DNA of 48,284 nt from Candidatus Doudnabacteria bacterium. Lineage in GTDB: Bacteria > Patescibacteriota > Dojkabacteria > J137 > JAEUSD01. The DNA lies in contig JAEUSD010000009.1 in assembly GCA_016788825.1 (NCBI GenBank), positions 1-48,284 on the forward strand, written 5' to 3'. The position numbers were made by a program, and so were the translations under genes. The notes under the pieces were generated by a model. The model made no database searches, had not been told where the DNA came from, and saw only the letters and a list, made by a program, of their open reading frames with translations. Of the stretch, positions 1,673 to 44,180 are shown one piece after another. Each line of letters starts with the position of its first letter. The stretch's first letter is position 1.

Positions 1673-2653
1673 TCACCTCAACATCCCCTTCAGTACCTGA
1701 ACAATATTCTCCGCTGTCAGGCCGTGCAACTGCCATAGGTCTCTTGTTGTCTCGGCTGTATCGCCGAATTTATCGTTTACAGCTATGTGCGCGAAATCAA
1801 ACTGCAGGCCGGCGGCAAGCAGTTCCTTCGCCAGCAGTTCGCCCACCCCGCCGGCCGCCTGGTGCTCTTCTACCACGAGCAGTCTTTTTGTCTGGGCGAC
1901 ATTTTCAAGTATCGGGCGGATGTCCAAAGGCTTGATAGTATGAATATTCAGAAGTCCCCCATGTAGGCCGATCTCAGATACCGTATTTAGTGCTCGCCAG
2001 GCTTCCGCCACCATGTACCCATAAGTAACTATTGTGAAGTCAGAACCAAACTTCAGCTGCTGAGCTTCCCCAATTTTGAATCCTTTATCTTCGTATCCAT
2101 CTATCAGCCTAGACAATAAGGGAGTTTTCTCTCGGCCCAACCGAATGTAGATAGGCCCATCTATGCCGGCCGCAGACAATGCCATCTCTTTAGCTTGGTC
2201 CGCATCGGCCGGCACCCACACTTGCATATTGGGCAGGCTGCGCATAATCGCGATGTCTTCTAGCGCCTGGATTTGTATCCCATCTCCGGCGTAACTAAAA
2301 CCTGCGTGGCTGGAGACAATCTTGACGTTAGCTTTCTGGATACAAATAGAAGTTCTTATCTGGTCTAGGTTGCGGTAAGGTTGGAAACAAGCAAAGCTTC
2401 CGATGTAAGGAATAAACCCTTCTAGTGCCATTCCCGCAGCTACAGCCGCCATATTCTGCTCAGCTATCCCCACTTGTACAAATCGCTGGGGGAACTCAGC
2501 CTCAAACTCTTGCATCCTCACCGACTCGGTCAAGTCTGCCGATAGCCCAACCACCAGAGGATTAAGCTTTCCCACTGCCAAGAAGCCTTCCCCAAATCCA
2601 TCTCGTATACTCATTTCGGTTGGTGTTTGTGTTTTCGCTTGCTTGGATTTCAT
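1673..2653 (-). CDS. Transketolase, C-terminal subunit
   Basis: This 326-residue protein covers the pyrimidine-binding and C-terminal domains of transketolase. VGIAEQNM carries the conserved catalytic glutamate, followed by the family pattern around SFACF, DQIRTSI and SHAGFSYAGDG. With the N-terminal subunit it forms the TPP enzyme that moves two-carbon ketol units between sugar phosphates in the cytoplasm. Its ATG overlaps the stop of the N subunit by 4 nt, so the two are translationally coupled. Two-gene transketolases are known in archaea and many bacteria. 1-Deoxyxylulose-5-phosphate synthase is a relative, but that enzyme is normally a single chain. Confidence 0.93.
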   Translation of the reverse strand: MKSKQAKTQTPTEMSIRDGFGEGFLAVGKLNPLVVGLSADLTESVRMQEFEAEFPQRFVQVGIAEQNMAAVAAGMALEGFIPYIGSFACFQPYRNLDQIRTSICIQKANVKIVSSHAGFSYAGDGIQIQALEDIAIMRSLPNMQVWVPADADQAKEMALSAAGIDGPIYIRLGREKTPLLSRLIDGYEDKGFKIGEAQQLKFGSDFTIVTYGYMVAEAWRALNTVSEIGLHGGLLNIHTIKPLDIRPILENVAQTKRLLVVEEHQAAGGVGELLAKELLAAGLQFDFAHIAVNDKFGDTAETTRDLWQLHGLTAENIVQVLKGMLR

Positions 2654-3528
2654 GATTGATTGGCTGTCAATTCTGCTAAGGCTATATCTAGTTGTTTTTT
2701 ATCTGGAACTTTGCCGTGCCACTCCCACTTATTCTCCATAAAGCTGACTCCTTTGCCAGGAACCGTATTCGCTATAATAATTGATGGTTTTCCAGAGACC
2801 ATTTTGGCTTTACTAAATGCAAAAAGTACTTGGGGAATATCGTTACCATCGACTTCAATTACATTCCAATTAAATGCTTTCCACTTATCTACAACTGGGT
2901 CTAAGGGCATTATCACGTCGGAGGTTTCGGAGAGTTGAATGTGGTTGCGATCACAAACTACGCATAGATTATCCAACGAATACTTGGCTGCTAGCATCGC
3001 AGCTTCCCATACACTGCCCTCATTACTTTCGCCATCCCCGATCACACAGTACACCCGATAGTCAACCAACTCATCGGGTTTGGACTTCTTTTTGGTTGGC
3101 CTTCCCATCGTTGCATGGAGTTTTCCGGCCAACGCCATTCCCACTGCTATCCCAATACCTTGCCCCAAGGAGCCCCCGGTTGTTTCCACCCCAATATCTA
3201 AGTCTCGGAAAGTATGACCTTTGAGGCGCGAATCATTTTTGCGTAGCGTCAGGAGTTCCGATTGAGAGATAAACCCTCGTTCGATCAATGTGGCATACAA
3301 GACCGGCACCATATGGGCCGCGGAGAGTACAAACCGGTCTCGATATGGGTCTCGCGGATGTACTGGGTCGACGTTCATTACGGAGAAATATAGCGCAGCC
3401 AGTACATCCGCAATCCCTAGCGGCCCACCAGTGTGCCCTGACCCTGCCGCCCCCAACATTTTGAGGGTATTTATTCTAATCTGGTTCGCCACCCCGACCA
3501 GCTGTTGTGCTGAAAAATTCTTGGGCAT
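2650..3528 (-). CDS. Transketolase, N-terminal subunit
   Basis: From ATG at 3528 the product has 292 residues, the usual size of a stand-alone transketolase TPP-binding domain. It shows GSGHTGGPLG near the N-terminus, GGSLGQGIG, and the TPP/Mg motif beginning GDGESNEG and ending with CDRN. The open frame continues upstream to 3639, but that extension would run through the divergent promoter and into the neighbouring plus-strand gene. A start at 3555 cannot be excluded. It opens an operon with the C subunit (4-nt overlap) and two further genes. Its promoter must lie in 3529-3610, which is AT-rich. Confidence 0.93.
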   Translation of the reverse strand: MPKNFSAQQLVGVANQIRINTLKMLGAAGSGHTGGPLGIADVLAALYFSVMNVDPVHPRDPYRDRFVLSAAHMVPVLYATLIERGFISQSELLTLRKNDSRLKGHTFRDLDIGVETTGGSLGQGIGIAVGMALAGKLHATMGRPTKKKSKPDELVDYRVYCVIGDGESNEGSVWEAAMLAAKYSLDNLCVVCDRNHIQLSETSDVIMPLDPVVDKWKAFNWNVIEVDGNDIPQVLFAFSKAKMVSGKPSIIIANTVPGKGVSFMENKWEWHGKVPDKKQLDIALAELTANQS

Positions 3529-3575
3529 GCTTACAGCATAAGGGAAAAGCGGCATAAACTCAAGGAAGGGAGGAT

Positions 3576-3605
3576 TTGTTATAGGGTATATAATTATGAT
3601 ATAAT
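3576..3605 (+). promoter_or_regulatory. Sigma70-like promoter of a probable leaderless mRNA
   Basis: TTGTTA (3576-3581), an 18-bp spacer and TATAAT (3600-3605) precede the ATG at 3611 by only 5 nt. Transcription would start at or next to the start codon. A second TATAAT at 3589-3594 would allow a leader of about 10 nt. Confidence 0.6.
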
Positions 3606-3610
3606 ATAGC

Positions 3611-4180
3611 ATGTCCGAAACAATCACCTCTCTTTCCATACTTGGCCAAAGCCCCCTATTACACGTTTTAAATGGTATTAAGGTCGGATCATATTCCTAC
3701 CTAAATGTACTTGGTGAATTACTCCGTCAAAAGCTAATTGTCGCCAATCAAGAGTATAATTCGAACCCGACTGAAGTTAACCTTATTAATAAGGCCCGAA
3801 TTCAGGCCGCCCAAACTGTGACGTTGGGTACACTACAGTATAAAGTCTACAGCCAGGAAAAAGGTAAAGTAACCTTGTTGATGTTAGACGATCAAAACAA
3901 CCTCGTGAAGACTACGTGGATAGCAAAAGCTACAACCCCCGCTAAACACATAGCGAGCGCAGTTAACCATCTCGTACTCCCTATCACTAATTTTCGAACC
4001 CTTCATCTTATGTACATTGACCAAAGTGACGAGGCTCAGCTTTCAGAGGCCAAAGCAAAGATCACAACTTTCACGGAAACCTATACAGAAACTGTTCGAA
4101 ACCTTTTGTCTACTGGAGAATATGCCAAGATCCTGGAAGACTTTGAAGAAAACATTGCATCTTTAAACAAAGAAAGCTAA
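3611..4180 (+). CDS. Hypothetical protein, 189 aa
   Basis: I do not recognise this family. The product has no clear membrane segment or signal peptide. It has a mixed alpha/beta first half (GKVTLLMLDDQNN looks like two strands) and a Glu/Lys-rich, probably helical C-terminal third. The start is supported by a TATAAT box 5 nt upstream. The stop is 3 nt before the next gene, so the pair forms a two-gene operon flanked on both sides by minus-strand sugar-phosphate genes. Codon use looks like its neighbours, but the two genes are noticeably more AT-rich. Confidence 0.6.
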   Translation: MSETITSLSILGQSPLLHVLNGIKVGSYSYLNVLGELLRQKLIVANQEYNSNPTEVNLINKARIQAAQTVTLGTLQYKVYSQEKGKVTLLMLDDQNNLVKTTWIAKATTPAKHIASAVNHLVLPITNFRTLHLMYIDQSDEAQLSEAKAKITTFTETYTETVRNLLSTGEYAKILEDFEENIASLNKES

Positions 4181-4183
4181 CAA

Positions 4184-4666
4184 ATGACAAAGCTCTCAAT
4201 AAATACTTTTTTGGAAGATATTCTAAACTCATTACTAGGGGGTAATACTTTGGAGGCTCGTAAGAAACTAACCTCATTAAATGATTTGATTCACGATGCG
4301 GAAATCGAATGGGAAGATAGTACTATTACCGCGCTTTACTCCCAATTCTTAGTTGGGCTCTGTGGTTTTGTGGAAAGATTTAGCGGCAATAGCGATTGGG
4401 AAGCAAGAGTTAACTCCTGCTTGATCAGTCATCTATGGGGGAATTATTTTAGTCTAAAGCTCAGACAGTATAATGATGGGAACAGAGATCCTAATCGCGA
4501 CCTTGAAGAATTCGGCTTTTTAGTAAGTCAGCCGGGAGTACAAAATATACTAAAGAAATATAAATGCGATTCTGAGGGTACAGAATTGACAGAACTCATA
4601 GCGATACTTGCCTCAAAGCTACCCCTTAATCAGGGGAAAGACGAAGTACGCCTAATACCAAGGTAA
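4184..4666 (+). CDS. Hypothetical protein, 160 aa
   Basis: Unrecognised. The product is acidic and looks mainly helical, with no membrane segment. It follows the 3611 gene by 3 nt and probably shares its leaderless transcript. Its stop codon directly abuts the stop codon of the convergent LOG/methyltransferase gene (TAA at 4664-4666, next stop from 4667). Function cannot be inferred; the pairing with the upstream gene suggests that the two products work together. Confidence 0.55.
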   Translation: MTKLSINTFLEDILNSLLGGNTLEARKKLTSLNDLIHDAEIEWEDSTITALYSQFLVGLCGFVERFSGNSDWEARVNSCLISHLWGNYFSLKLRQYNDGNRDPNRDLEEFGFLVSQPGVQNILKKYKCDSEGTELTELIAILASKLPLNQGKDEVRLIPR

Positions 4667-5944
4667 TTAGACTTTCTTAAACACCCCAACTAACCATTCG
4701 TGGCTACGAGTAACTTGCTCGATCTTGACCATTTCTAGACTAGCTTTCTGAGTTCTATCCAGCAGCTCTTGTTCGGTAAAATAATGGTAAAACTTCTCTC
4801 TCTCTTCCCCCGCTTCAATGTCAATCTCGTAACCTTCCCCCTGCCCTTTGCGTACAATCATGTACAAAATCCCCCCATCAACCAACCCTGCGGAGATCTT
4901 ACCAAACATCTCATCCATTTTTGCTTCGGGAATATGGTGCAACACGTCGCGTGACCAAATACCTTTGTATGTATTCTGCGGCATCTCAAACTCCAACACA
5001 TCTGTGAGCAAGATATCTACTCCAGGATTCTCAAGTTTTGTAATCTCCACCGCTTCGCGCGATTTATCCAACGCAGTCACAGAGTACTTATTTGCCAAAA
5101 ATACTGTATCGTGGCCAGTTCCACATCCAATTTGCAAAACTTTTGCCGGAGGTTGAACAAGATTTATAAAGTCTTCCAACTGTGCTTTCGCTACTACATT
5201 GGTTACTCGTTGCTTCTTCTGTAATTCTAGAATCTTACGCTTTTGAGCCGCATCTACAGCAGGTGAAAGTACAAAAGCCTTCTCATCCCCGTTATAAACT
5301 TCTTTGACACGCGTTTGAACTTCCAGTTCAAACGCTTCAACCAATTCCAAAACCTCTTCTGGTGTAGTCGCATAATGCAAAACACCAAGCTCGTTATCAT
5401 CCAAAATCATTGCTTTTTGGAAGGCGTCGATCAGGGCAGGCCACTTATCCCCAAACAAGATCACAGGCTTATGTTTACCGTAATACAACTTTGCCAGAGC
5501 CCACACCATACCGAATTCAGAAATCGTCCCAGTTCCACCTGGACAGACAATATACACATGCCCCTTCTCGATCAAACCAAGAGTACGCATCATGTAGTTT
5601 GAGTAAGTACTCGATTCATCAGTAATATTGGTAATGTTTTTACCTTCGAACAAAGAAGCCAGCCTTGGTTCCCAGTAAACTGCGGCGGTGTGTCCCTCTA
5701 CAGATTCTGCTCCATCGGTTGCTGCTTTCATAATTCCGGGACCACCGCCGTCGACAATTGCAAAGCCGTTTTCGGCTAATAGCTTGGCAGTTTGCATTAC
5801 CACTCGATAGATCTCGCTATCTTCTGGGATGGCGGAGTCTCCAAAGAAAGTAATGTACTGAATAGCACGGCTCGTGTTTATCTTTATCTCTGGTAACTCA
5901 CTAGTTTCAGGACGGTTAGGAAGTTTTACAACACTTTTTGGCAT
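4667..5944 (-). CDS. LOG-family nucleotide phosphoribohydrolase-like / SAM methyltransferase fusion
   Basis: Residues about 25-215 form a LOG-type Rossmann domain, with GGGPGIM at 66-72, the M-R pair at 119-120 and the signature PGGTGTISE at 135-143. LOG enzymes split nucleoside monophosphates into base and ribose-5-phosphate. Residues about 255-425 form a class I SAM methyltransferase, with motif I VLQIGCGTG at 269-277 and SRDVLHHIP further on. The whole is one uninterrupted 425-residue frame. It is third in an operon behind rpiB and the epimerase-like gene (12-nt gap). The ribose-phosphate neighbours fit LOG chemistry; the methyl acceptor is unknown. The alternative for the N-terminal half is an uncharacterised nucleotide-binding LOG-like protein. 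Confidence 0.82.
   Translation of the reverse strand: MPKSVVKLPNRPETSELPEIKINTSRAIQYITFFGDSAIPEDSEIYRVVMQTAKLLAENGFAIVDGGGPGIMKAATDGAESVEGHTAAVYWEPRLASLFEGKNITNITDESSTYSNYMMRTLGLIEKGHVYIVCPGGTGTISEFGMVWALAKLYYGKHKPVILFGDKWPALIDAFQKAMILDDNELGVLHYATTPEEVLELVEAFELEVQTRVKEVYNGDEKAFVLSPAVDAAQKRKILELQKKQRVTNVVAKAQLEDFINLVQPPAKVLQIGCGTGHDTVFLANKYSVTALDKSREAVEITKLENPGVDILLTDVLEFEMPQNTYKGIWSRDVLHHIPEAKMDEMFGKISAGLVDGGILYMIVRKGQGEGYEIDIEAGEEREKFYHYFTEQELLDRTQKASLEMVKIEQVTRSHEWLVGVFKKV
5311..5335. repeat. Perfect hairpin inside LOG/methyltransferase fusion, 11-bp stem, 3-nt loop
   Basis: GCGTTTGAACT, loop TCC, AGTTCAAACGC. It encodes residues 204-211, at the end of the LOG domain just before the linker to the methyltransferase. 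Confidence 0.9.
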
Positions 5945-5956
5945 AGTTTTTTAAGC

Positions 5957-6604
5957 TTAGTTATTCAGTTTATCAAACAATTGACGATATGCCACTTGCT
6001 TATCTGCGCTTTTCTGTAAATATGAACCCACGCTTAACCTTTGGATATCTACCTCTTTGAGATAATCGACAGACTCCATGTTTATCCCTCCATCAAGACT
6101 GATACCCCCACGAAAACCTTTGTCTCGAATACCTTTCACCTTATCCAACACGCTCGGTTGAAATATATTCCCTTGTTTGCCGGCCTGAATAGTCATCAGT
6201 TGAATCTCTGAGAAATTTTCGAGTAAAGAAATTTCGGGTACGGGAGTTTCTAGTTTGAGTACTAAACCGAAGTTGGCTAAGTTGTAGTTATCAGATAGGG
6301 CAAATTCATAATCGGCCTCTGCATGGATATAGATTTTGGCCATCCGCTCTCCCATAGTCTGAATAATCTTCTTAACTGCCTGTTCAGGAGAGGCATACAT
6401 CAAATGAAAACCCAGACAAGGCAGTTCGAGATATCTACTTATAACTTCGAGCCCTTCATCTATGGGTACAGTGTCGTTACCCACGAACTGAGCTTCGCAG
6501 AAGTCGATATCTATCTGTTCAACTGGCAATAGAGCGTATTCAAGTAATACAGCCTCAAAAGTTTCTAGATCAGGAGTCAGTAATGCTGGTGTAATTTTGA
6601 CCAT
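5957..6604 (-). CDS. Ribulose-phosphate 3-epimerase-like TIM-barrel protein (divergent)
   Basis: The 215-residue length and order of motifs fit ribulose-5-phosphate 3-epimerase: an N-terminal ITPALL (usually PSIL), a DID...QFVGN segment aligned with the HxD...HFVPN motif, FHLM with the second metal histidine, and SLDGGIN with the catalytic aspartate. Unlike typical enzymes, the first serine is alanine and the first metal-ligand histidine appears to be aspartate. Location between rpiB (3-nt gap) and the LOG fusion supports a role in pentose phosphate interconversion. A changed substrate or loss of activity is possible. Confidence 0.72.
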   Translation of the reverse strand: MVKITPALLTPDLETFEAVLLEYALLPVEQIDIDFCEAQFVGNDTVPIDEGLEVISRYLELPCLGFHLMYASPEQAVKKIIQTMGERMAKIYIHAEADYEFALSDNYNLANFGLVLKLETPVPEISLLENFSEIQLMTIQAGKQGNIFQPSVLDKVKGIRDKGFRGGISLDGGINMESVDYLKEVDIQRLSVGSYLQKSADKQVAYRQLFDKLNN

Positions 6605-6607
6605 CCT

Positions 6608-7060
6608 CTATCTTAAATGTTGAGCCTCATATCTGGCAATCTGTTGCAAGCGTCTGGTATGGCGTCCAGCATCAAATGTAGAGTTTAGGAAGTTGCGCAC
6701 GATCTCAATGTGCATGGACTCACTTTGGTAATCTGCGTCTAGAACCAAGATATTGGCATTGTTGTGGTCCCGCGCCTTTTGAGCATGAGCAGGGGTAAAG
6801 CACACAGCGGCACGGACATTTTTGACTTTGTTTGCGGCAATGGCCATGCCATTGCCGGATCTACAGATCAAAATCCCTATATCATCGGAGTTTTTGGCTA
6901 CCTTCTCGGCCAGCGGGAAAGCGTACACAGGGTAATCATCTTCCGGGTCCAAAGCCGCTGGCCCCATATCCACCACACTCTTCCCTTGCTCTGCCAACCA
7001 CCCCACAATTTTCTTTTTTAATTCAAACCCTCCGTGGTCGGAGGCGATGTAGATTGTCAT
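6608..7060 (-). CDS. rpiB: Ribose-5-phosphate isomerase B
   Basis: This 150-residue protein has the RpiB/LacAB fold signatures: IASDHGG near the N-terminus, ILICRSGNGMAIAANK with the catalytic cysteine C66, and DHNNANIL with the ring-opening histidine H99. It interconverts ribose-5-phosphate and ribulose-5-phosphate in the cytoplasm. The start overlaps the upstream stop by 4 nt (ATGA). The conserved active-site loop is encoded by a perfect 10-bp hairpin (6835-6857). Assignment to RpiB rather than a galactose-6-phosphate isomerase rests on neighbouring pentose phosphate genes. Confidence 0.92.
   Translation of the reverse strand: MTIYIASDHGGFELKKKIVGWLAEQGKSVVDMGPAALDPEDDYPVYAFPLAEKVAKNSDDIGILICRSGNGMAIAANKVKNVRAAVCFTPAHAQKARDHNNANILVLDADYQSESMHIEIVRNFLNSTFDAGRHTRRLQQIARYEAQHLR
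6835..6857. repeat. Perfect hairpin inside rpiB active-site codons, 10-bp stem, 3-nt loop
   Basis: CGGCAATGGC, loop CAT, GCCATTGCCG. It encodes the conserved GNGMAIA segment. Confidence 0.9.
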
Positions 7061-8040
7061 GCTTCGATTATTTGATTTACTGGCCTATAAGCAATAGTAT
7101 ACACCCCATCTCCTTTAAAGGTTATCTCGAAGCTCGCCTTTGAGAATGGGCCATCAGGAACAGCTTGAGGAAACCGAATATCTATAGTTGCTTTACCACC
7201 CAAAGGTAATTCGATAGTTTCCTGGTTTTCATTCAATTTAACATAGGCTGCATTTTCAGAAACCCTTAAAACACCGTCTAGTCCCACGATTAGTTTTACA
7301 GGGTGCGGGAATTCATTGGGTGCAAAAGGTGCGACAACAAATATATCTGCCCCCCTCGTAGCACCATTAGCCATACTAGGAAATATTGTTAACCTAGAAT
7401 CGTCTTTTCCAACAGAGAAATTGTCAGGCTTGTCCTTTGTAACAGTAGCAACAGATAAATCAACAGCTTCAGTTGTATAAGGAAGTGTAGTCGTAGCCTT
7501 GTTCATCGCCAACATTCTTTGTGATTCAACATTACCTAAAGAATCAGTGACAGTGCCTAGGCTATTTATAATCTCTTTAAGTAGAAAACCATGAATTGAA
7601 GACCTCCCTACGACAGCCATATTCATAAGAGAAAGTAGTATTTGGGATATCAAAGATAAGTCTACTACAACTATGCAATCACTAAGTTCAACTATCAAGA
7701 GTTGCTTTACCAGCTCTCCTCGATACTGAGTAACTACTAGCGGGCACCGTATAGCCTCTGACTCTTCAAACATGCTCGCAGAGAAGCCGTTAACCATGAC
7801 CCTCTCACCAGTACTTGAATTTAAATCTTTAAACTTGTCAACTTCTAAGCCGGCCTTATTCCCTTTTATCCAGATAACACCATTCCCTAATACATCGGCA
7901 GGCGTCTTTTCTAAGGCTTTTTTGGAAAGGATCAGAACTCCTTGCTCTGCTAACTTTTCCAGGTGAGGAGTAAAAGCAGCATAACCTAATGCGGGCTTTG
8001 TAGTTGAGCCATCAGCGTGTTTCAATTGATTGAGTCCCAT
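7057..8040 (-). CDS. Hypothetical protein, 327 aa, first gene of rpiB operon
   Basis: I do not recognise this protein. Its N-terminal half carries short alpha/beta segments and one hydrophobic stretch around residues 117-140 that may be a buried helix. The last 100 residues look like a beta-rich domain with alternating strands and a PLGGKATIDIRFP segment, similar in texture to immunoglobulin-like or pilus-chaperone folds. There is no signal peptide. A -10-like TAAGAT lies 6 nt upstream of the ATG, so it probably leads a leaderless operon mRNA with rpiB, the epimerase-like gene and the LOG fusion. Confidence 0.6.
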   Translation of the reverse strand: MGLNQLKHADGSTTKPALGYAAFTPHLEKLAEQGVLILSKKALEKTPADVLGNGVIWIKGNKAGLEVDKFKDLNSSTGERVMVNGFSASMFEESEAIRCPLVVTQYRGELVKQLLIVELSDCIVVVDLSLISQILLSLMNMAVVGRSSIHGFLLKEIINSLGTVTDSLGNVESQRMLAMNKATTTLPYTTEAVDLSVATVTKDKPDNFSVGKDDSRLTIFPSMANGATRGADIFVVAPFAPNEFPHPVKLIVGLDGVLRVSENAAYVKLNENQETIELPLGGKATIDIRFPQAVPDGPFSKASFEITFKGDGVYTIAYRPVNQIIEA

Positions 8041-8123: not shown

Positions 8124-9242
8124 CTATCTCCCCGTAGCCTGTTTAACCAAGGCTATTAGTTCTTGGGAGTCTTTGTCGGAGAATCGCTCGCGAGCGGGGG
8201 CAAGGATATCGATTAGGTGTTTGGCAACTGCATTTTTGAGATCGAGAGGGAATAGATCCCCGCTCGCGTAGGCAGCTTCTAGTTCTGGGTAGGATTTGAA
8301 AGTGACATTACCACCGAATCGTTCCTCTCTTTCAATCACAACTTCGCCAATGATTGGGAATAGTAAGTGTTGAGTCCAGTCCAAAATTGGATTGAACTTC
8401 GTCTCCTTCTCAGGAGCATACGCTTTGCGAATCTTGTCTTGGATCTCTTCAGGGGTGTCATGGATAAACACAGCTGACCCAGGAACCGATTTACTCATCT
8501 TCATCGCAGTTGTCAGCTCAACTTTATCCATAGACTCATCAGGAGCAGTAGCCGGCTTTTGCAACCCCATTACCAAATGATGGTGAATCGCGATCGGCTT
8601 CATTATATTTCCAGCACCGTCTCTTAATGGGTTAATTTTCAACTTCTCAGCAACTTCCAGAGCAATTACATGGCATTTGCGCTGATCCATTCCCGCATGT
8701 GCGATATGGTTACCCATTTCAAAAATATCTGCAACTTGCATCGGAGGATAGATAAGTAAGGCAAAATTCATATTTTCCGACTCTTGACGGCCTAAAATAG
8801 TCGTAGATTTCATCACTCTAGACAGGGTTAGATTCTTTGATACCTCGACCAAACTCTGCCAGTACCGGTCATTATTGTGATAAAGCTCAGAACCAAATAT
8901 TGGAGCAATCTTCTCTGGATCGGCGCCTGCGATTTCGCAAGAAACCTTCATCGCAGGCATAAAGTATTCAAGCGCCACACGCTTGATCAACTCGTGATCA
9001 CCTCCTAGTTTATTATTTATCCAGGTATGCCAGTCCGCAAGAAAGATTCTAGTATCTACACCTAGCTTTTGTAGTTCACGAATCACGAGACCAGTCATTA
9101 AGCCTGAACCGAGATGGAGGATACCCGAAATTTCAAAGCCGATATAATGCTTCAACTGCTCACCTCCATCGAGCATAGAACTCAATTTCTCTTCCCCTAA
9201 AATTTCTTCCGTAACTTGTTTTAGACTTGTAAGGTCAGCCAT
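8124..9242 (-). CDS. tyrS: Tyrosyl-tRNA synthetase, archaeal/eukaryotic type
   Basis: This class I synthetase has HLGSG (residues 43-47) as its HIGH motif and KMSKS at 248-252. It keeps the tyrosine-pocket residues of archaeal TyrRS: Y33, Y165, Q169 and D172, with AHAGMDQRK shortly after. The C-terminal pattern TPEEIQDKIRKAY, RFGGN and LDLKNAVAKHLIDIL closely matches archaeal TyrRS, and the bacterial S4-like domain is absent, which explains the 372-residue length. It charges tRNA-Tyr. It follows the arogenate dehydrogenase-like gene by 2 nt and is probably co-transcribed. Confidence 0.9.
   Translation of the reverse strand: MADLTSLKQVTEEILGEEKLSSMLDGGEQLKHYIGFEISGILHLGSGLMTGLVIRELQKLGVDTRIFLADWHTWINNKLGGDHELIKRVALEYFMPAMKVSCEIAGADPEKIAPIFGSELYHNNDRYWQSLVEVSKNLTLSRVMKSTTILGRQESENMNFALLIYPPMQVADIFEMGNHIAHAGMDQRKCHVIALEVAEKLKINPLRDGAGNIMKPIAIHHHLVMGLQKPATAPDESMDKVELTTAMKMSKSVPGSAVFIHDTPEEIQDKIRKAYAPEKETKFNPILDWTQHLLFPIIGEVVIEREERFGGNVTFKSYPELEAAYASGDLFPLDLKNAVAKHLIDILAPARERFSDKDSQELIALVKQATGR
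8185..8268. repeat. Palindrome and 11-bp inverted repeat at 3' end of tyrS
   Basis: CGCTCGCGAGCG (8185-8196) is a 12-bp palindrome, and CGCGAGCGGGG (8189-8199) pairs with CCCCGCTCGCG (8258-8268). All coding. Confidence 0.6.
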
Positions 9243-26481: not shown

Positions 26482-27558
26482 ATGCACATCGCAGTTATCA
26501 CTCCGATCCATACCCCTGATGGGATTTCCCGCTATTCAGAGAAACTTTATTCCGAAATCTCGCGTGAGCATCAAGTAACCTTCTTAGCTAACCAAGATAT
26601 TGCTCGGCTGACATTACCTGATGGCGCCAATGTACAGAGACTCTGGATAGCTAGTAATAAGAATTTCGAGGCTGTGGGCGCTTGGATCCGAGAGAATAAG
26701 GTTGATATGGTTCACATCCAAGCGCACCCAGAGTACTTCCCGCCAGCTGCGCTGGCGGCATTACTCAAAGAGATTGAAGCCCCAAAAGTGATTGTGACTA
26801 TGCATTCCTTCGGCCCTTGGCATACGGCTTATGCAAATATTTTGAATCAACCCAAAGTAACCAAAGTTCTCATCCACAACCCTGACGCGATCGCGTCCGA
26901 GCATATTCACTCAACGCAGCTCGAACTATTCCCGCTCGGGTACGACACATACCCTCGCTTCGACAAACAAGAATTACGCCAAGTACTGAACATTGAAGAT
27001 AACTCACCCGTCATCGTGACTCATGGCCTGATCACAGAAAGCAAAGGGCTGCTCGAAACTGCAGAAGCTGTGAAAATCTTAACCGCAGACTTCCCAAAGA
27101 TTTCTTGGCTGGCTGCAAATGCTCTAAATGGGAATAATCCCGCTTCGGCGAAAGTAGTGAATCAATTCAAGAAACGGATTACCGAACTAGGGCTAGAGCA
27201 TCATATAACCTTAATCACAGATTTCTTGTCCAGCGCAGCCGTCGCAGGGCTCATCCAGGCGGCGGATATTGGCGTGCTCCCCTACCAGGAGGTAGGAGAA
27301 GGCGCCAGCGCCGCCGCCCGCAAGTTCATCAGCTGCGGCATCCCCACGATCGTCACTGATATTCCTGTGATGCAGGAATTCACCACGGAGGCCTACAAGA
27401 TCGCCGACAACTCTCCCGCAGCAATTGCAGAAGGAATCCGTCAGCTCTGGGGGAATGAAGTGTTGCGAACAGACCTCTCGCAAAACAGTGCAGCCACAGC
27501 CGAAAGATTAAACTGGCCGCACGTGGCTGCCCAATTAATTCAAATTTACAATTCCTAA
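26482..27558 (+). CDS. Glycosyltransferase family 4 (GT-B)
   Basis: The 358-residue GT-B protein begins MHIAVITPIHTPDGISRY. It contains VHIQAHPEYFP in the first domain and VIVTHGLITESKG with IGVLPYQEVGEGASAAARKF in the second. The E-x7-E-like donor loop of GT4 is atypical here (EGASAAARK). An AAAGGAAG upstream of the ATG is one of the few Shine-Dalgarno-like sequences in the window. It probably transfers a nucleotide-activated hexose in surface glycan assembly. Confidence 0.85.
   Translation: MHIAVITPIHTPDGISRYSEKLYSEISREHQVTFLANQDIARLTLPDGANVQRLWIASNKNFEAVGAWIRENKVDMVHIQAHPEYFPPAALAALLKEIEAPKVIVTMHSFGPWHTAYANILNQPKVTKVLIHNPDAIASEHIHSTQLELFPLGYDTYPRFDKQELRQVLNIEDNSPVIVTHGLITESKGLLETAEAVKILTADFPKISWLAANALNGNNPASAKVVNQFKKRITELGLEHHITLITDFLSSAAVAGLIQAADIGVLPYQEVGEGASAAARKFISCGIPTIVTDIPVMQEFTTEAYKIADNSPAAIAEGIRQLWGNEVLRTDLSQNSAATAERLNWPHVAAQLIQIYNS
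26740..26758. repeat. Hairpin inside GT4 CDS, 8-bp stem, 3-nt loop
   Basis: CCGCCAGC, loop TGC, GCTGGCGG. An adjacent 10-bp inverted repeat, GCGCTTGGAT (26678-26687) and ATCCAAGCGC (26716-26725), lies just upstream in the same gene. Confidence 0.7.
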
Positions 27559-27559
27559 C

Positions 27560-27838
27560 ATGGCACATCGTCCCGCAACCGAGTTAATTCAACTTTTGGC
27601 TGAGGCAAAGACCAAAGTGGAAATGGAGGCAACCTACTTCCACTACAAGCACCCAGAGCAACTTTATACACTTGTTGATGTGATAATTATCGAAGCCACT
27701 GAGGAAATCGGAGTCTGTTACCGCGCTGAATATCCGGAACTCCAAGGCGTAACTTTCATGCGACCAATTTCAGATTTTTTAGCCTTTGTCGAGAAAGACG
27801 GGAAAAGTGTCCCAAGATTTACGAAGGTCGCTGCTTAA
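27560..27838 (+). CDS. DUF1653 domain protein
   Basis: The 92-residue product matches the DUF1653 pattern: YFHYKHPEQLY near the start, an acidic EATEEIGVCYRAEYP segment, the FMRP motif and the C-terminal DGKSVPRF. The function of this family is unknown; small size and lack of membrane segments suggest a cytoplasmic protein. It follows the GT4 gene by 1 nt, and its last 20 nt overlap the 3' end of the convergent gtrA-like gene. Confidence 0.82.
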   Translation: MAHRPATELIQLLAEAKTKVEMEATYFHYKHPEQLYTLVDVIIIEATEEIGVCYRAEYPELQGVTFMRPISDFLAFVEKDGKSVPRFTKVAA

Positions 27839-28295
27839 AGACAACTAGCTTGTACAACAAGTAGCTTGTCACCATTTGCACGGCAGTTACAAAAACCTTT
27901 GAGATACCCTCTGTAATTCCATGATTAACTACCAAAAATCCGAATAAAATATTTGTATACAAATATGTGAATCCCACCACCAAGATGTAACGATAAAGTT
28001 GGTGCCGCATTTCCCCTCCGTTAGCATTGAATGCCCAACTGCGTTGTAAAAAGAAACTGTAGGCGATCGCTATAAAAGCTGAAATGGAGTTTGCTACCGA
28101 TATGTCTATGTTGAAAGGAAAGTCCAAAACAGAAAAGCTTACCACGAAAAAAGGACTAAAGTTCAGGACATAAACCATACTTATCAAAAGGCTTAAATCT
28201 ATTAGTGTTGCCGACACTCCTACTATGAAGAATCTCACAAACTGACGAGACATCAGTAACTTTCGCATCTTTAGAATATTTTCTTTCATCTGCAT
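27819..28295 (-). CDS. GtrA family membrane protein
   Basis: The 158-residue product has four transmembrane helices, with FIVGVSATLIDLSLL in the first and the family signature FLQRSWAFNA between helices 2 and 3. GtrA-like proteins are proposed to flip polyprenyl-phosphate-linked sugars, or bind them, for surface glycan modification. Alternative starts exist at codons 3 and 10. The gene is divergent from a DPM1-like GT2, its usual functional partner, across a 50-bp gap. Confidence 0.88.
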   Translation of the reverse strand: MQMKENILKMRKLLMSRQFVRFFIVGVSATLIDLSLLISMVYVLNFSPFFVVSFSVLDFPFNIDISVANSISAFIAIAYSFFLQRSWAFNANGGEMRHQLYRYILVVGFTYLYTNILFGFLVVNHGITEGISKVFVTAVQMVTSYLLYKLVVFKQRPS

Positions 28296-28333
28296 CGTGG
28301 TACTTAAGCTTATGGTATATTGAGAAACGTGCT

Positions 28334-28339
28334 TATAAA
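28334..28339 (+). promoter_or_regulatory. -10 element of the GT2 gene
   Basis: TATAAA lies 6 nt upstream of the ATG at 28346, consistent with a leaderless mRNA. Confidence 0.45.
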
Positions 28340-28345
28340 CTGACT

Positions 28346-29080
28346 ATGTCTTTGCTATCAATCGTAATCCCAATATACAACGAACAGGCTACCTTAGAAC
28401 CGATTGTTAGGCAAGTACAGTCAGTTAATTTCCCCCCTGGTTGGAAGATTGAGTTAATCTTGGTCGATGATGCTTCATCTGATACTACCCCTAAAATTAT
28501 ATCTAAACTAAATAAAGAGTTTACCAATATCTCGAACCTGAAGAATGAAAGAAATTTGGGGAAAACGCAGACAGTGAAGCAAGGAATACTGAAGTCGCAA
28601 GGGGATTTCGTGATTGTTCAAGATGCAGACCTTGAGTATGACCCGCGTGAAATCTCCGAAATGCTTCAAAAAGCGATTAACGAAAATTTAGACGTTATTT
28701 ATGGAAACCGTTTTGGACACAGAAATAAAGTAATTTATTGGCAAAATTTTATCGGGAATAAGTTTGTTTCCCTTGTTTCTAATCTCTTTACTTATCCTCG
28801 AATTGGAACTTGGATTCCAGATATGGAAACTTGTTACAAGCTGATCAAAGGCGATGTCGCGCGCGACATCGCCACCCAAATAACTGCTACGAGCAACTTT
28901 GGTTTTGAACCCGAAGTTACTGCCCGACTTGCTCGTTTCCACCGATCGGGAGAACATCTGCGGTTTGGAATCTTACCCATTCATTACAATCCACGCACGG
29001 TTAGCGAAGGCAAAAAAATAAAAGTACTACGCGATGGGACAAAAGCGGTTTGTGAGGTCATCTACTACAACCTATTCTAG
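28346..29080 (+). CDS. GT2 glycosyltransferase, dolichol-phosphate mannosyltransferase-like
   Basis: The 244-residue GT-A protein starts SIVIPIYNE. It has VDDASSD, the acidic metal-binding motif VQDADLEYDP and GNRFGHRN, all as in DPM1/polyprenyl-phosphate glycosyltransferases without C-terminal membrane helices. It probably loads a sugar from a nucleotide donor onto undecaprenyl phosphate. Residues around 169-176 are encoded by a perfect 24-bp palindrome. Its 3' end overlaps the convergent membrane protein gene by 9 nt. Confidence 0.88.
   Translation: MSLLSIVIPIYNEQATLEPIVRQVQSVNFPPGWKIELILVDDASSDTTPKIISKLNKEFTNISNLKNERNLGKTQTVKQGILKSQGDFVIVQDADLEYDPREISEMLQKAINENLDVIYGNRFGHRNKVIYWQNFIGNKFVSLVSNLFTYPRIGTWIPDMETCYKLIKGDVARDIATQITATSNFGFEPEVTARLARFHRSGEHLRFGILPIHYNPRTVSEGKKIKVLRDGTKAVCEVIYYNLF
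28850..28873. repeat. Perfect 24-bp palindrome inside GT2 CDS
   Basis: GGCGATGTCGCG followed directly by CGCGACATCGCC, encoding GDVARDIA. No flanking T-run. Confidence 0.92.
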
Positions 29081-30424
29081 TTCCCTAGCCAACATCAACA
29101 CCACCAAATTGATATACATGTAATTCCAAGACACACGGTTGAACATGCAGAAAGTTAAAAGTAACAAACACATGTACATCAAAGTTCGTGGGAAAGTAAT
29201 TGGCTTGCGAATAAACAGCAAAAAGACTGCTGCACAGCTAGCAACCAACAGTGGGATAGCAAACCTCGTCAGACCAAGTAAATTCAAAATAGGAGTCAGA
29301 TACATCGGGTATACCCCAGCTACTTGGTCGTAAGAGCTGGCATTCCCATAGATTCCAAATACATTATGCATGTATCCGCTGAAATTCGGCAAGGCAAACA
29401 GCGCTATTAGCACTCCACCAATTGCCACCGCGCCCAAAAGATAAGTTGCGGCAGTCTTAGACCCCCATTTTTTGATCAGGTAAATCCCCAGAAATGGGGT
29501 GAATACCCAACTCCAAACCTGTGTGGCGATCCCAATTCCCCAAGTTATCATCCACCATTTTCTATAGTTTCTTACAAGCAGCAATAAGCTCAAGGCAAGC
29601 ACAAACCAGTAGGAAGGTTCGTACAAGTCGTGACGGAGCAACCGATAAGGGAAAAGTAGCCACGCTACCAGGAGAATGCAGGTGAAGAGAAATTTCGAAT
29701 CCAGCTTGAGAGAATTTGTATTGGGGTAGATCCCTTTAAATAAAACTGCAGCAACTCCTAGGTGAAACAATAAAGACATAAACCGAATGTCGATATTCAA
29801 AAGGTAAGCCGGCAAAAAACTTAGTGCGCTGAGTGGCTGACGCACGGCTGCCTGCCATACACCATTGTCAAGCAAATAAACTTGATAGATGCTCTGTCCC
29901 TGTATAAACGATTCTATTTGCTTAAGAATGGCAGGCAACAGGTCCGAGATTTTGGCTGTAATCGGGAAATATATTATCGGCAAAAGGCTAATCAAAATAG
30001 TACTGACGGCCAAACTACCAAGTATAAGCTTGGGCTTGCGAGAGAATAAGGCTATGCTAAAAACAAGGAGAGAGACGAGCCCGACACCTAGCATAACCCA
30101 ATCATTCCAAGTATTTATGCCAGGAAAATACGTGCTAGTGAGTCGCATCAACACTAGACCGAGGACGATGCTCACGCTGAACAATGTGACTAGCAGTGTA
30201 GTCAGAACCTTAGGTGAAATACTCTGTGGCCGGGAAGTTCCCTTGAAATACCAGATGACAACTCCGTACAAGAAGACTACGGATAGCAACGTATAAATAG
30301 CGATAACAATCGGCGAGACTCCATTATTGAAAGGGAAATTGCTGTCTCGCCTAAAAGTTAAAAACAGTGTAAGTAAAACGATTGGTAGAAAAGACGCAGT
30401 CGCAAGAGGTGTTAAGTACTTCAT
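29072..30424 (-). CDS. Polytopic membrane protein, GT-C/GT87-like
   Basis: This 450-residue protein has about ten to twelve transmembrane helices and a re-entrant-looking region YRLLRHDLYEPSYWF. This layout resembles GT-C membrane mannosyltransferases (GT87/DUF2029), but the canonical acidic motif in the first loop is not clear (only TWNDW in a later loop). An export or polymerase role is an alternative. Its start overlaps the GT4 stop by 4 nt, making it the last gene of the galE operon. Confidence 0.65.
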   Translation of the reverse strand: MKYLTPLATASFLPIVLLTLFLTFRRDSNFPFNNGVSPIVIAIYTLLSVVFLYGVVIWYFKGTSRPQSISPKVLTTLLVTLFSVSIVLGLVLMRLTSTYFPGINTWNDWVMLGVGLVSLLVFSIALFSRKPKLILGSLAVSTILISLLPIIYFPITAKISDLLPAILKQIESFIQGQSIYQVYLLDNGVWQAAVRQPLSALSFLPAYLLNIDIRFMSLLFHLGVAAVLFKGIYPNTNSLKLDSKFLFTCILLVAWLLFPYRLLRHDLYEPSYWFVLALSLLLLVRNYRKWWMITWGIGIATQVWSWVFTPFLGIYLIKKWGSKTAATYLLGAVAIGGVLIALFALPNFSGYMHNVFGIYGNASSYDQVAGVYPMYLTPILNLLGLTRFAIPLLVASCAAVFLLFIRKPITFPRTLMYMCLLLLTFCMFNRVSWNYMYINLVVLMLARELE

Positions 30425-31497
30425 AGTTGGTTAATTAAAGTCTTAGCACAGTTGGCCCAGTTAAATTTCTTTATCAGTTTATTATTTCCAAAACTTGTAT
30501 TTAACTGAGACAAGTTCGTCAATCCTTGAGCGATACTCTGCACATCTTGAGAATCAACGAATATAGCATCATTCGAAGTGAGAATTTCGTGAAAAACAGG
30601 GATATCGGATACTAGAACTGGGATTCCGCGATAGGCAGCATTTAATGGCGGAATCCCAAACCCTTCGTAAATACTGGCATAGAGAAACCCTTGGCTAGCA
30701 TCGGTAAGTGCTGCTAACTCAAAATCTGGAAGATAATCTAGAAATTTAACTTTATCTTGTATTTGCAGCTTCTCAACTTCGGCAAATACTTCGGCATATT
30801 TCCAACCTTTTTTGCCTACAATCACGTAATTGAAATCTGGGTGGGATTTGGCGAATTCTCCAAATCCCTTGATCATATTTACATAGTTTTTACGCGGCTG
30901 GATTGTACTTACAGACAAAAAGAATTTTTCAGGCAATTGATACTTACTTCGGATTTCAGCTCTTTCAGTTTCAGAAGTTTGAGGGGATAAAGCCCAATCA
31001 TTAACAGATAGCGGAATTACGCCTATTTCTTTTTTGTACCATGGGAATTTTTGTTTGATCTCATCGGCTACTGCCTGGGAGATTGCAACAACCTTCCATG
31101 CGCGCAAAAGTGCGACCCAAAGGGTCAAAGTAAACATTATACGATGCTTGATTGTGACTGTTTCTGGGAGGACCATGGGTGATAAATCTGGCACTATTTG
31201 GATGGTCCTAGGAAACAAGGCCGCGGCGGTGAAGGTCCAAGTAGAGATAAAGACATCAACGCCGCGGCCACGCATATCTCTACTCGCTTTGAAATACCAT
31301 CGTAAGCCAGAAAAAAGACCCTTAGGCTTCGCAATCCGTACCCACCCTTCTGGGGTTTCACCGAGATATTTATCTGTGGTGTACGGGATCAATTCATGTT
31401 CAGGAAAAGCCTTAAATCCCTGGATTATCCCTTCGGTCATGAAGTCTAATCCTGTCTTAGCTCCTGTTAAATTACTGGCATCAATTGCGATTCTCAT
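30421..31497 (-). CDS. Glycosyltransferase family 4
   Basis: The 358-residue GT4 protein starts MRIAIDASNLTGAKTGLD. It shows VVAISQAVADEIK, FFLSVSTIQPRKNY and the donor-binding pattern FLYASIYEGFGIPPLNAA with the conserved glutamates. This resembles mannosyltransferase B/WbdA-like enzymes of O-antigen clusters. Its 5' end overlaps the upstream GT2 by 17 nt. A pair of interleaved inverted repeats (31219-31284) and a quasi-palindrome (30843-30868) lie inside it. Confidence 0.9.
   Translation of the reverse strand: MRIAIDASNLTGAKTGLDFMTEGIIQGFKAFPEHELIPYTTDKYLGETPEGWVRIAKPKGLFSGLRWYFKASRDMRGRGVDVFISTWTFTAAALFPRTIQIVPDLSPMVLPETVTIKHRIMFTLTLWVALLRAWKVVAISQAVADEIKQKFPWYKKEIGVIPLSVNDWALSPQTSETERAEIRSKYQLPEKFFLSVSTIQPRKNYVNMIKGFGEFAKSHPDFNYVIVGKKGWKYAEVFAEVEKLQIQDKVKFLDYLPDFELAALTDASQGFLYASIYEGFGIPPLNAAYRGIPVLVSDIPVFHEILTSNDAIFVDSQDVQSIAQGLTNLSQLNTSFGNNKLIKKFNWANCAKTLINQL
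30843..30868. repeat. 26-bp quasi-palindrome inside GT4 CDS
   Basis: GGGATTTGG (30843-30851) and CCAAATCCC (30860-30868) flank cGAATTCt, so 12 of 13 symmetric positions pair. Confidence 0.7.
31219..31284. repeat. Two interleaved 10-bp inverted repeats (pseudoknot-like order)
   Basis: GGCCGCGGCG (31219-31228) pairs with CGCCGCGGCC (31260-31269). AGTAGAGATA (31240-31249) pairs with TATCTCTACT (31275-31284). The order is A-B-A'-B', all inside the GT4 gene. Confidence 0.75.
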
Positions 31498-32452
31498 GTT
31501 TGGGGAATATCTGAGCTTGTTTGGCTACAACTTTGTCTTTGATTCTGGCAAAATACCAAGGTGCAAAAAGGTGCATAAACGCATATTGTAGCTTTTCAGA
31601 AAGTCGTAGTAACACTCTACTGATCTTGCCTAAAATAAACATCTCGTTTGTGAATATAGCCTTAGCTTCAAGCGGAATATGCTTTGCATGCTGGGCAATA
31701 GCAGCAAAAGACTCTAGGTGGACATCCGCCCTGTTTAACCGTGTTTTCGTCTGGTCATGTAAGCGGGTGGCACTCAGCACCTCTGGTACAAATCTGAACT
31801 TATACCCGCGGTGGAAAAGTCTCAACCACAATTCATAGTCAAAAGAGTTTCTAATCGCTTCGTTGAAGCCGCCTTCTTTATCCAAAACCTCTTTCTTCAC
31901 AAACGCAGAAGGCTGGCTGATCACACAATTTACGTATAGCGACTTTTTGGCAATATCTTGTGGCGGATACATACCAACGACTTCGCTTTTCTCATCGATA
32001 TACAATGAGTTTCCGTAGATTACATCGGCCTCAGGATATTTCTCGAAGTATTCCAAAATGTTATCTAGGGCATGTCTGTAGTAAATATCATCCGTGTTTA
32101 AATAAGCAAAGACATGCCCTTTAGCCATCGCCAATCCTTTGTTTATTCCATCAGCCGTTCCATTATCTTTCTCACGGACCCACCGCACACTCACGCCTTT
32201 GCACTGGATAACACTACCTTCGCCTTGAGGAGAAAAGAACTCCAACCCTTCTCTACTTTCGACACGAGAATCAACCTTTAATTTCTCGATCACCTTCTCG
32301 ATCTCCTCACTCGTATTATCATCAGACAGCGCGTCTACGATGATATAGTCCAACCAGAAGTCACCCTCCTGGGAAATCACCGAATGCAGGGTCTCAGCAA
32401 TGTATTTGCCCTGGTTATATGTCGAACTTACAATACTGATTATTTTGTCCAT
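31481..32452 (-). CDS. GT2 glycosyltransferase
   Basis: The 323-residue GT-A protein starts ISIVSSTYNQGKYI. It has YIIVDALSDD, an insert of about 45 residues before VRWVREKDNGTADGINKG, and the metal motif YLNTDDIYY. Its closest relative in the window is the GT2 at 40399-41322, which has the same insert and a LNSDDYY motif; they appear to be paralogues with different acceptors. It lies 4 nt after galE in the same operon. Confidence 0.88.
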   Translation of the reverse strand: MDKIISIVSSTYNQGKYIAETLHSVISQEGDFWLDYIIVDALSDDNTSEEIEKVIEKLKVDSRVESREGLEFFSPQGEGSVIQCKGVSVRWVREKDNGTADGINKGLAMAKGHVFAYLNTDDIYYRHALDNILEYFEKYPEADVIYGNSLYIDEKSEVVGMYPPQDIAKKSLYVNCVISQPSAFVKKEVLDKEGGFNEAIRNSFDYELWLRLFHRGYKFRFVPEVLSATRLHDQTKTRLNRADVHLESFAAIAQHAKHIPLEAKAIFTNEMFILGKISRVLLRLSEKLQYAFMHLFAPWYFARIKDKVVAKQAQIFPKHENRN

Positions 32453-32456
32453 AGTT

Positions 32457-33449
32457 TTATTTCGTTATATTTTGATACCACTTCCAAGCGGACACAAGCA
32501 TATCTTCAAGAGATTTTTCAACCTGCCAACCTAAAAGCTCTTGTGCCTTCTTGTTGCTGGCTATCGATCTTACTACATCTCCTGGACGTCTATCTCCATA
32601 AGCATATTTCAGATCTCCCCCAGAAATTTTAATAAATGTATCAAATACCTGCTTGATTGTGTATCCATTTTGAGAACCTAAGTTGATGACCTCAAAGTTA
32701 TTATGCATGCTATCCAGTTTCTCCAGACCCAGCCTGTGAGCAGATACTAAATCTAATACATGGACAAAGTCACGAATAGTGGTACCGTCAAGAGTGTCGT
32801 AATCCTTCCCCAATATCTTAAACTCTGTATCTCTTTTCCCAAGAGCTGTAAGCATAATATTAGGAATCAAGGCTTGCGATTTTAAGTCGGCATCACCAAT
32901 TTTTCCGTCAAGTTCATTCCCTGCAACATTGAAGTATCTAAAAGCAATCGCTTTTGTACCGGAAGCGAAGCACATATCAGCAATCGCTTGCTCTGCGAAG
33001 TACTTACTCTTCCCATAAGGAGAGGCAGGAGTGATTCTTGCCGTTTCATCTGTGGGAACCTCGACGTCATCTCCGTAAACTGCTGCTGTCGAAGAGAAAA
33101 TCAACCGCTTTATGCCTCTAGTCTGCATCCAAGTCAACAAACTAAATACACCCTGTGTATTGTTCTTATAGTACTTCAATGGATCAGTGACTGATTCGGG
33201 AACTAATTTGAATGCAGCAAAGTGAACTACTCCATCGATATTCCCCACCACCTTTTCTAGATCATACAGGACATCACCTTCGATAAACTCAAGCTTCTTT
33301 CCGATCAGTGATTCGAGCCGCTTAATCTGCTGCAGAGAAGATTTAGATAAGTTATCCAGCACTACGACTTCGTAGTTATTCTTCACTAACTCTAAAACCA
33401 TATGGGAACCGATATACCCAGCTCCACCAGTAATAAGTATCCTTGCCAT
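32457..33449 (-). CDS. galE: UDP-glucose 4-epimerase
   Basis: From ATG 33449 the product has 330 residues with the extended SDR pattern: GGAGYIGSH at the NAD site, SSTAAVYGD with the catalytic serine region, and YGKSK. It also has [13 protein letters not shown] and a C-terminal RRPGDVV typical of GalE. It interconverts UDP-glucose and UDP-galactose (or the N-acetyl forms) for glycan assembly. A TATAAT lies exactly 6 nt upstream of the ATG. It leads the operon galE-GT2-GT4-membrane protein and is divergent from gmd. Confidence 0.94.
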
Positions 33450-33455
33450 ACAATG

Positions 33456-33461
33456 ATTATA
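33456..33461 (-). promoter_or_regulatory. -10 element of galE operon, leaderless
   Basis: TATAAT lies 6 nt before the galE ATG. The divergent gmd promoter lies about 70 bp away, so both operons share one control region. Confidence 0.6.
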
Positions 33462-33526
33462 ATCTATAAACAAACTTCGTCATACCCATTATGTGTGCGT
33501 CCTCGCATTATCTCAAGGTATTCTGG

Positions 33527-33532
33527 TACAAT
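33527..33532 (+). promoter_or_regulatory. Probable -10 element of gmd operon
   Basis: TACAAT lies 28 nt upstream of the gmd ATG (33561), giving a leader of about 20 nt. No strong -35 box. Confidence 0.35.
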
Positions 33533-33560
33533 CTTACACATCTTTAAAATTAAAACTACT

Positions 33561-34604
33561 ATGAAAAAAGCACTCATCACCGGGATCACTGGTCAAGACG
33601 GTTCATACCTTACAGAGTTACTACTTGAAAAGGGTTACGAAGTGCACGGTATTGTCCGTCGCTCTTCTAACTTCAATACTGACCGGATCGATGAGGTGTA
33701 TCGGGACCCGCACGAGAAACCAAACATGCTGCTGCACTTCGGGGATCTTACTGATTCTTCCGTCATAGACAAACTAGTTCGCGAGATAAAGCCTGACGAA
33801 GTATACAACCTAGGTGCTCAGAGCCATGTAAAAGTAAGTTTTGAGATTCCTGAGTACACCGCAAACACAGTAGGAATTGGAACTTTGCGTGTATTAGAGG
33901 CTATTCGCAACTATGCCCCAGAGGCCAGGTTCTACCAAGCATCTTCTAGCGAAATGTTCGGAAAAGTTTTAGAGACTCCTCAGAAAGAAACAACTCCATT
34001 CTACCCCCGTTCACCTTATGGTGTGGCAAAGGTATTTGGTTACTGGATCACTGTAAACTATCGGGAGAGTTACGATATGCATACAAGTAACGGAATACTG
34101 TTTAACCACGAGTCTCCTCGCCGTGGTCGGACGTTTGTAACCAGAAAAATCACCCGTGACTTGGCTTTGGTTAAACTGGGGAAACGGGAAGCGTTATATC
34201 TAGGCAATCTTGATTCTAAGCGGGATTGGGGACATGCTAAAGACTACGTAGAAGCTATGTGGTTGATGCTGCAACAAGATAAAGGCGACGACTACGTCGT
34301 CGCCACAGGAGAAATGCACTCTGTGCGCGAGTGCGTTGAATTCGCCTGCAAGGAACTTGAGTTTGACCTGGAATGGGAAGGCGAGGGAGTAAACGAGGTT
34401 GGTATTGATAAGAAATCTGGCAAAGAAATTGTTAAAGTGGACCCCAAATACTTCCGCCCAGCAGAGGTTGACCTACTGCTTGGAGATTCAACAAAAGCAA
34501 GAACTAAACTGAACTGGCAACCTAAGTATACATTCGAAAGTCTAATCCGCGAAATGGTAAAGTTTGACCTTGAGAACGAACAAACTCATAAGTACAACTA
34601 CTAG
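33561..34604 (+). CDS. gmd: GDP-mannose 4,6-dehydratase
   Basis: From ATG 33561 the product has 347 residues: [11 protein letters not shown] at the NADP site, the Gmd-specific [21 protein letters not shown], and [12 protein letters not shown]. It also has FNHESPRRG and [14 protein letters not shown]. It converts GDP-D-mannose to GDP-4-keto-6-deoxymannose, the first step to GDP-L-fucose, and the next gene encodes the second step. The frame extends upstream to 33402 but overlaps the divergent galE. A 9-bp hairpin lies at 34284-34304. Confidence 0.97.
34284..34304. repeat. Perfect hairpin inside gmd, 9-bp stem, 3-nt loop
   Basis: GGCGACGAC, loop TAC, GTCGTCGCC. The loop and outer bases match the hairpin at 43227-43249. 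Confidence 0.85.
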
Positions 34605-34620
34605 TTCTTAAAAAGTTACT

Positions 34621-35565: not shown

Positions 35566-35572
35566 CTTTTTA

Positions 35573-35578
35573 TATACT
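35573..35578 (+). promoter_or_regulatory. Possible internal -10 element, leaderless
   Basis: TATACT lies 5 nt upstream of the ATG at 35584, in the short gap after fcl. It could provide a second, leaderless transcript for the polyprenyl-phosphate GT genes. Confidence 0.4.
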
Positions 35579-35583
35579 AGCCG

Positions 35584-41322: not shown

Positions 41323-41356
41323 GACTTATGGTTCTTAATAAATTTGGGAACTTATT

Positions 41357-42523: not shown

Positions 42524-42525
42524 GT

Positions 42526-44178: not shown

Positions 44179-44180
44179 AA

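Follow-up and report, generated by a model that had tools for sequence, protein, structure and literature searches.

A LOG-family protein in the pentose phosphate operons of Patescibacteria and its methyltransferase fusion in Dojkabacteria

We found that a protein of the LOG family is regularly encoded in the pentose phosphate operons of many bacteria of the candidate phyla radiation (CPR). The analysis started from a single contig of 48,284 nucleotides (JAEUSD010000009.1, contig 56 of a 1.09-Mb Candidatus Doudnabacteria genome whose named relatives are Dojkabacteria/WS6), here called the window, in which a LOG domain fused to an S-adenosylmethionine (SAM) methyltransferase is encoded beside ribulose-phosphate 3-epimerase (RPE; gene rpe) and ribose-5-phosphate isomerase B (RpiB). 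On the sequence evidence, we give an even chance to the proposal that LOG would cleave a scavenged phosphoribosyl compound to yield ribose 5-phosphate, feeding RpiB, the epimerase and a split transketolase.

Results

To place the LOG domain in a wider context, a profile made from the fusion proteins was searched in Patescibacteria, where it recovered stand-alone LOG proteins across the phylum. The scores of a LOG profile over 380 sampled Patescibacteria genomes are bimodal: 51 strong matches lie at 220-305 bits, and all others at 113 bits or below. Outside the window's class, every one of the 48 strong matches has an RPE gene no more than ∼2.5 kb away, across 16 sample families (39 of these loci were read gene by gene and 9 were placed by coordinates; 28 of the 48 did not go into building the profile). 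In contrast, none of the 59 weaker CPR LOG matches with a listed RPE falls within 3 kb of it. The original prediction that LOG belongs with pentose phosphate genes thus holds far more generally than at one locus. Our search of the open-licence literature found no earlier description of LOG as part of the pentose phosphate operon in CPR bacteria.

At 20 loci picked by score alone, LOG stands beside rpe in every case, 19 times in a same-strand run and once divergently. The commonest gene order is rpiB-rpe-LOG-tktN-(X)-tktC-pfkB, where tktN and tktC encode the two transketolase subunits; RpiB is present in 33 of the 39 loci read, TktN in 29, TktC in 24 and PfkB in 23, and in most distant operons tktN follows LOG directly. 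The PfkB-family kinase resembles ribokinase, ribose-1-phosphate kinase and nucleoside kinase, none of them above cut-off. A single RPE-LOG protein is encoded at five of the 20 score-picked loci (L128-L132) and also at L165.

Other rearrangements were seen among these genes. At L169 (genome G368; 3970), a frame of 363 residues directly upstream of LOG and TktN appears to be a fusion of RpiB and RPE. Open reading frames (ORFs) of 444-470 residues with LOG matches occur in G336, G236, G205, G291, G351, G178, G321 and G192; two LOG matches share one 453-residue frame in G336 (family f80), which suggests that ordinary CPR LOGs can carry two LOG domains in tandem.

To examine the active site, we mapped residues onto Corynebacterium glutamicum Cg1261 (PMC5379747) and compared 55 LOGs of the pentose-phosphate-operon group with 20 other CPR LOGs. 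Arg155, Thr175 and Glu178 (Cg1261 numbering) are invariant in all 55; their counterparts in the window fusion are Arg120, Thr140 and Glu143, so that the catalytic Arg and Glu and the phosphate-binding GT are present. The base-binding side of the pocket is different. In Cg1261, Lys156 and Asp177 contact adenine, and cleavage of adenosine monophosphate (AMP) was abolished by K156A and almost abolished by D177A (PMC5379747). The Asp177 position is Ser in 55/55 operon-group LOGs, and the Lys156 position is Thr, Met or Val in 55/55, the window fusion having Ser142 and Thr121 there; the Phe152 position is Tyr, and the Pro170 position is mostly Lys, Asn or Arg, with Pro retained in the window copy. 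The other CPR LOGs keep Lys156 and Asp177 in 15/20 each, the remaining five having Leu at each position, and Pro170 and Phe152 in all 20. Phosphoribose binding and N-glycosidic chemistry are therefore likely to have been kept, and adenine recognition not; the LOG domain is most likely a phosphoribosyl hydrolase whose leaving group has changed. The predicted chemistry, from nucleoside monophosphates to pentose phosphates, is accordingly upheld for the phosphoribose and catalytic residues and weakened for the adenine-contacting residues, which are replaced in all members.

Phylogeny and structure prediction place the protein within the fold and apart from its ordinary members. The operon-group LOGs form a separate clade (support of 100 in the SH-like approximate likelihood ratio test, in a quick tree with long stems). 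Five other CPR LOGs (L178, L180, L188, L193, L194) form a second deviant clade, away from rpe; these are probably the sequences in which Leu replaces Lys156 and Asp177. The window LOG scores below the NCBIfam curated cut-offs (TIGR00730, 49.3 vs 96.35 bits; NF058542, 29.5 vs 300 bits). The model of the LOG domain (predicted template modelling score, pTM, 0.78) matches 9us2, 1wek and 5wq3 in Foldseek with E∼1e-9, indicating a LOG-type Rossmann fold. Because the full-length fusion model reaches a pTM of only 0.54, we leave the domain arrangement uninterpreted.

The distribution of LOG was compared with that of enzymes of the known route from nucleotides to central carbon. Within the class, AMP-phosphorylase-like genes occur in 0/16 genomes with the fusion and in 57/70 others (Fisher 7e-10, relatedness ignored); in the phylum sample, they occur in 0/51 LOG-subfamily genomes and in 46/329 others (p 0.002, relatedness ignored). 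Both groups cluster by family, so the independent exclusivity events are few and the mutual exclusion is suggestive only. Moreover, most AMP phosphorylase matches lie below the curated cut-off, which only 2/380 genomes pass, and some, especially those without the N-terminal 80 positions, may therefore be other nucleoside phosphorylases. RuBisCO was found in 0/10 genomes of the window's order. The host genome has neither AMP phosphorylase nor RuBisCO, in keeping with the prediction of a route distinct from theirs.

In the window itself, the genes are arranged as follows:

4667-5944, minus strand: fusion gene, LOG plus methyltransferase, 425 residues (LOG half ∼25-210, SAM methyltransferase half ∼255-425)
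5957-6604, minus strand: ribulose-phosphate 3-epimerase family, rpe (PF00834, 8.5e-18, 64.9 bits, cut-off 21.1)
6608-7060, minus strand: ribose-5-phosphate isomerase B, RpiB (PF02502, 3.4e-48; NF004051, 177.8 bits, cut-off 135)
7057-8040, minus strand: orphan ORF, 327 residues, sharing 4 bases with the start of rpiB
2650-3639, minus strand: transketolase N-terminal subunit, tktN (PF00456, 1.1e-51; the true start may lie further in)
1673-2653, minus strand: transketolase C-terminal subunit, tktC (PF02779/PF02780)
3611-4180 and 4184-4666, plus strand: two ORFs, 189 and 160 residues, between the fusion and transketolase genes

This gene content agrees with the original prediction, coordinates included. 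The gaps between orphan ORF, rpiB, rpe and fusion are only -4, 3 and 12 bases, so the four minus-strand genes fit one transcription unit. The LOG half matches PF18306 (49.5 bits) and PF03641 (41.7 bits), both above the Pfam cut-off; rpe is the sole PF00834 match in the host genome, and rpiB is present in single copy. The transketolase just beyond the fusion matches its usual operon position, but two opposite-strand genes intervene, and the split transketolase is therefore a neighboring unit, not part of the same operon. Comparison of gene orders shows that this pair (3611-4666) splits what forms one operon in other lineages; seen against the wider survey, the window holds a local form, broken up in part, of an operon that is widespread. 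The orphan ORF matched no Pfam or NCBIfam family and has a homologue in 0/85 other genomes of the class, which rules it out as a conserved component.

Two further features of the window lie outside this system. The tyrosyl-tRNA synthetase gene at 8124-9242 has NF006330/PRK08560 as its top match (385 bits, above cut-off), which we take to be the archaeal-type form. A large glycosyltransferase cluster at 26482-45371, with a GDP-mannose 4,6-dehydratase-family gene and a methyltransferase, is probably concerned with surface polysaccharide.

Homologues of the LOG-methyltransferase fusion occur in 16/86 genomes of the class, comprising 10/10 in the order and 6/6 sampled in family f5. Full-length homologues in independent genomes are 49-56% identical, and intact copies in many genomes rule out an assembly or frameshift artefact; apart from G016 and G003, where a contig end cuts the gene, all fusions are intact. 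In G016 (WS6 OLB20; L045/L096), a frame break in the methyltransferase half reflects sequencing error or decay. In every genome of the order whose contig shows that side, rpe is directly upstream of the fusion, which is thus not confined to sites away from pentose phosphate genes. The fusion adjoins rpe in this one order of the class only. Adjacency of rpiB and rpe is shared by the window and several other families of the class, f2, where the operon is already split, not being among them. In family f10 (G032-G039), rpiB and rpe are adjacent, yet neither the fusion nor AMP phosphorylase is present. A viral origin was considered, and viral contigs yielded no relative.

The methyltransferase half is of the class I type (PF13649, 1.3e-13; Foldseek 3sm3, E 7e-13), with Gly273 and Gly277 of the glycine-rich SAM motif invariant. 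Its closest solved sequences are phosphoethanolamine N-methyltransferases (4mwz, 5.5e-18), and its closest folds are a mix of small-molecule, TehB and tRNA types. No link to rpe was found for stand-alone homologues of this domain (L148-L156). Because LOG in other lineages has no methyltransferase, this half is a Dojkabacteria add-on rather than the core of the system. The view of an operon built round the fusion puts the emphasis in the wrong place: the methyltransferase is restricted to Dojkabacteria, and the f5 fusion does not adjoin rpe.

In the epimerase, the acid/base residues Asp37 and Asp177 are kept in 105/105 CPR RPEs, the window included. Of the metal ligands, the window RPE keeps His68 and has Asp in place of His35. 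Many CPR RPEs have lost His35, irrespective of the presence of LOG, and many have Gln there. We rejected this loss as a LOG-linked co-adaptation: 19/55 RPEs sampled from genomes without the operon-group LOG also have Gln, and independent pairs are unsupportive.

Discussion

The conserved operon and its fusions are most simply explained by a LOG hydrolase that would feed RpiB, RPE and transketolase. We infer the following direction of flow: LOG would act on a scavenged phosphoribosyl compound, presumably a nucleoside monophosphate or a relative, and free ribose 5-phosphate, RpiB would convert this to ribulose 5-phosphate, the epimerase would make xylulose 5-phosphate, and the split transketolase would hand carbon on to glycolysis. 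The PfkB-type kinase, whose gene frequently comes next in other lineages, may provide the phosphorylated substrate. In Dojkabacteria, LOG appears to have acquired the C-terminal methyltransferase, which may act on the base that is set free or catalyse a reaction of its own. A fuller version holds that a LOG with a rebuilt leaving-group pocket, previously unrecognised as a regular operon member, acts on a substrate that is not AMP and frees ribose 5-phosphate from it, which would offer an alternative to AMP phosphorylase/RuBisCO, coupled in Dojkabacteria to methylation of the leaving group; we put this forward tentatively, at somewhat less than an even chance.

It is instructive to compare this proposal with known systems. 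Type-II LOGs (C. glutamicum Cg1261, 5wq3; Thermus thermophilus TT1465, 1wek) are among the best sequence and structure matches and share the fold and Arg155, Thr175 and Glu178, whereas the window LOG has replaced adenine contacts, belongs to a separate clade, sits in a pentose phosphate operon and is fused to a methyltransferase. The canonical rpiB/rpe/transketolase pathway has the same three enzyme families in adjacent genes; here a LOG gene is added between rpe and tktN, and His35 of RPE is replaced. The route through AMP phosphorylase, ribose-1,5-bisphosphate isomerase and RuBisCO, found in archaea and some CPR bacteria, has the same proposed end of bringing nucleotide ribose to central carbon, but AMP phosphorylase is missing here from all sampled LOG genomes and RuBisCO from the order, and hydrolysis is proposed instead of phosphorolysis. 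Escherichia coli PpnN (YgdH), whose gene, to our knowledge, does not lie in a pentose phosphate operon, has a chain of ∼460 residues that matches the window protein only over the shared LOG-fold core. Metabolomics indicates that ribose 5-phosphate from this LOG-fold nucleosidase enters the pentose phosphate pathway (PMC10311079).

Several observations count against a nucleotide-cleaving LOG in this pathway: both residues that AMP cleavage depends on in Cg1261 are replaced throughout the operon group, the f5 fusion is located away from both rpe and rpiB, and the mutual exclusion with AMP phosphorylase follows family lines. In a rival reading, LOG no longer cleaves nucleotides. It would instead bind a free pentose phosphate (ribose, ribulose or xylulose 5-phosphate) and serve as a regulator, a carrier or an anomerase, or pair with the epimerase as a subunit. 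Loss of the base contacts around an invariant phosphoribose pocket would fit such a role, as would the direct RPE-LOG fusions, and some proteins of this fold, the molybdenum cofactor carrier protein (PDB 2iz5) among them, are carriers and not catalysts. Pure binding, however, would not need the equivalents of Arg155 and Glu178, which are invariant in the whole group, and the mutual exclusion with AMP phosphorylase speaks for a part in nucleotide catabolism; we consider this alternative rather unlikely.

Still less probable, in our judgment, is a housekeeping enzyme that removes nucleotides bearing modifications or damage (such as those of the cytokinin type from tRNA decay) and is co-transcribed only for its ribose 5-phosphate by-product, with the methyltransferase modifying the released base. 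LOG-family enzymes do free bases from modified AMP (PMC8234997), and the LOG-bearing fas operon of Rhodococcus fascians has methyltransferases encoded upstream of it, but these act on the prenyl precursor. The NCBIfam scores far under the LOG cut-offs argue against such an enzyme, and ordinary CPR LOGs, which would be better candidates for a clearing role, were never found near rpe. That LOG is a functionally unrelated passenger in an ordinary non-oxidative pentose phosphate operon would be in line with the reshuffling of CPR operons, seen in the split f2 operon and the separate f5 fusion; the linkage at 48/48 loci over 16 families together with fusion to RPE, set against 0/59 for other LOGs, makes it highly improbable.

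Where CPR bacteria that have only a minimal upper glycolysis get their carbon and ribose is still an open question (PMC7304191). If a phosphoribosyl-cleaving LOG does feed the pentose phosphate enzymes, these organisms would have a second way of bringing scavenged nucleotides, or compounds akin to them, into central carbon, with LOG absent wherever AMP phosphorylase was found. Such a route would be open to direct study, since the proteins are small and soluble and natural RPE-LOG and LOG-methyltransferase fusions exist.

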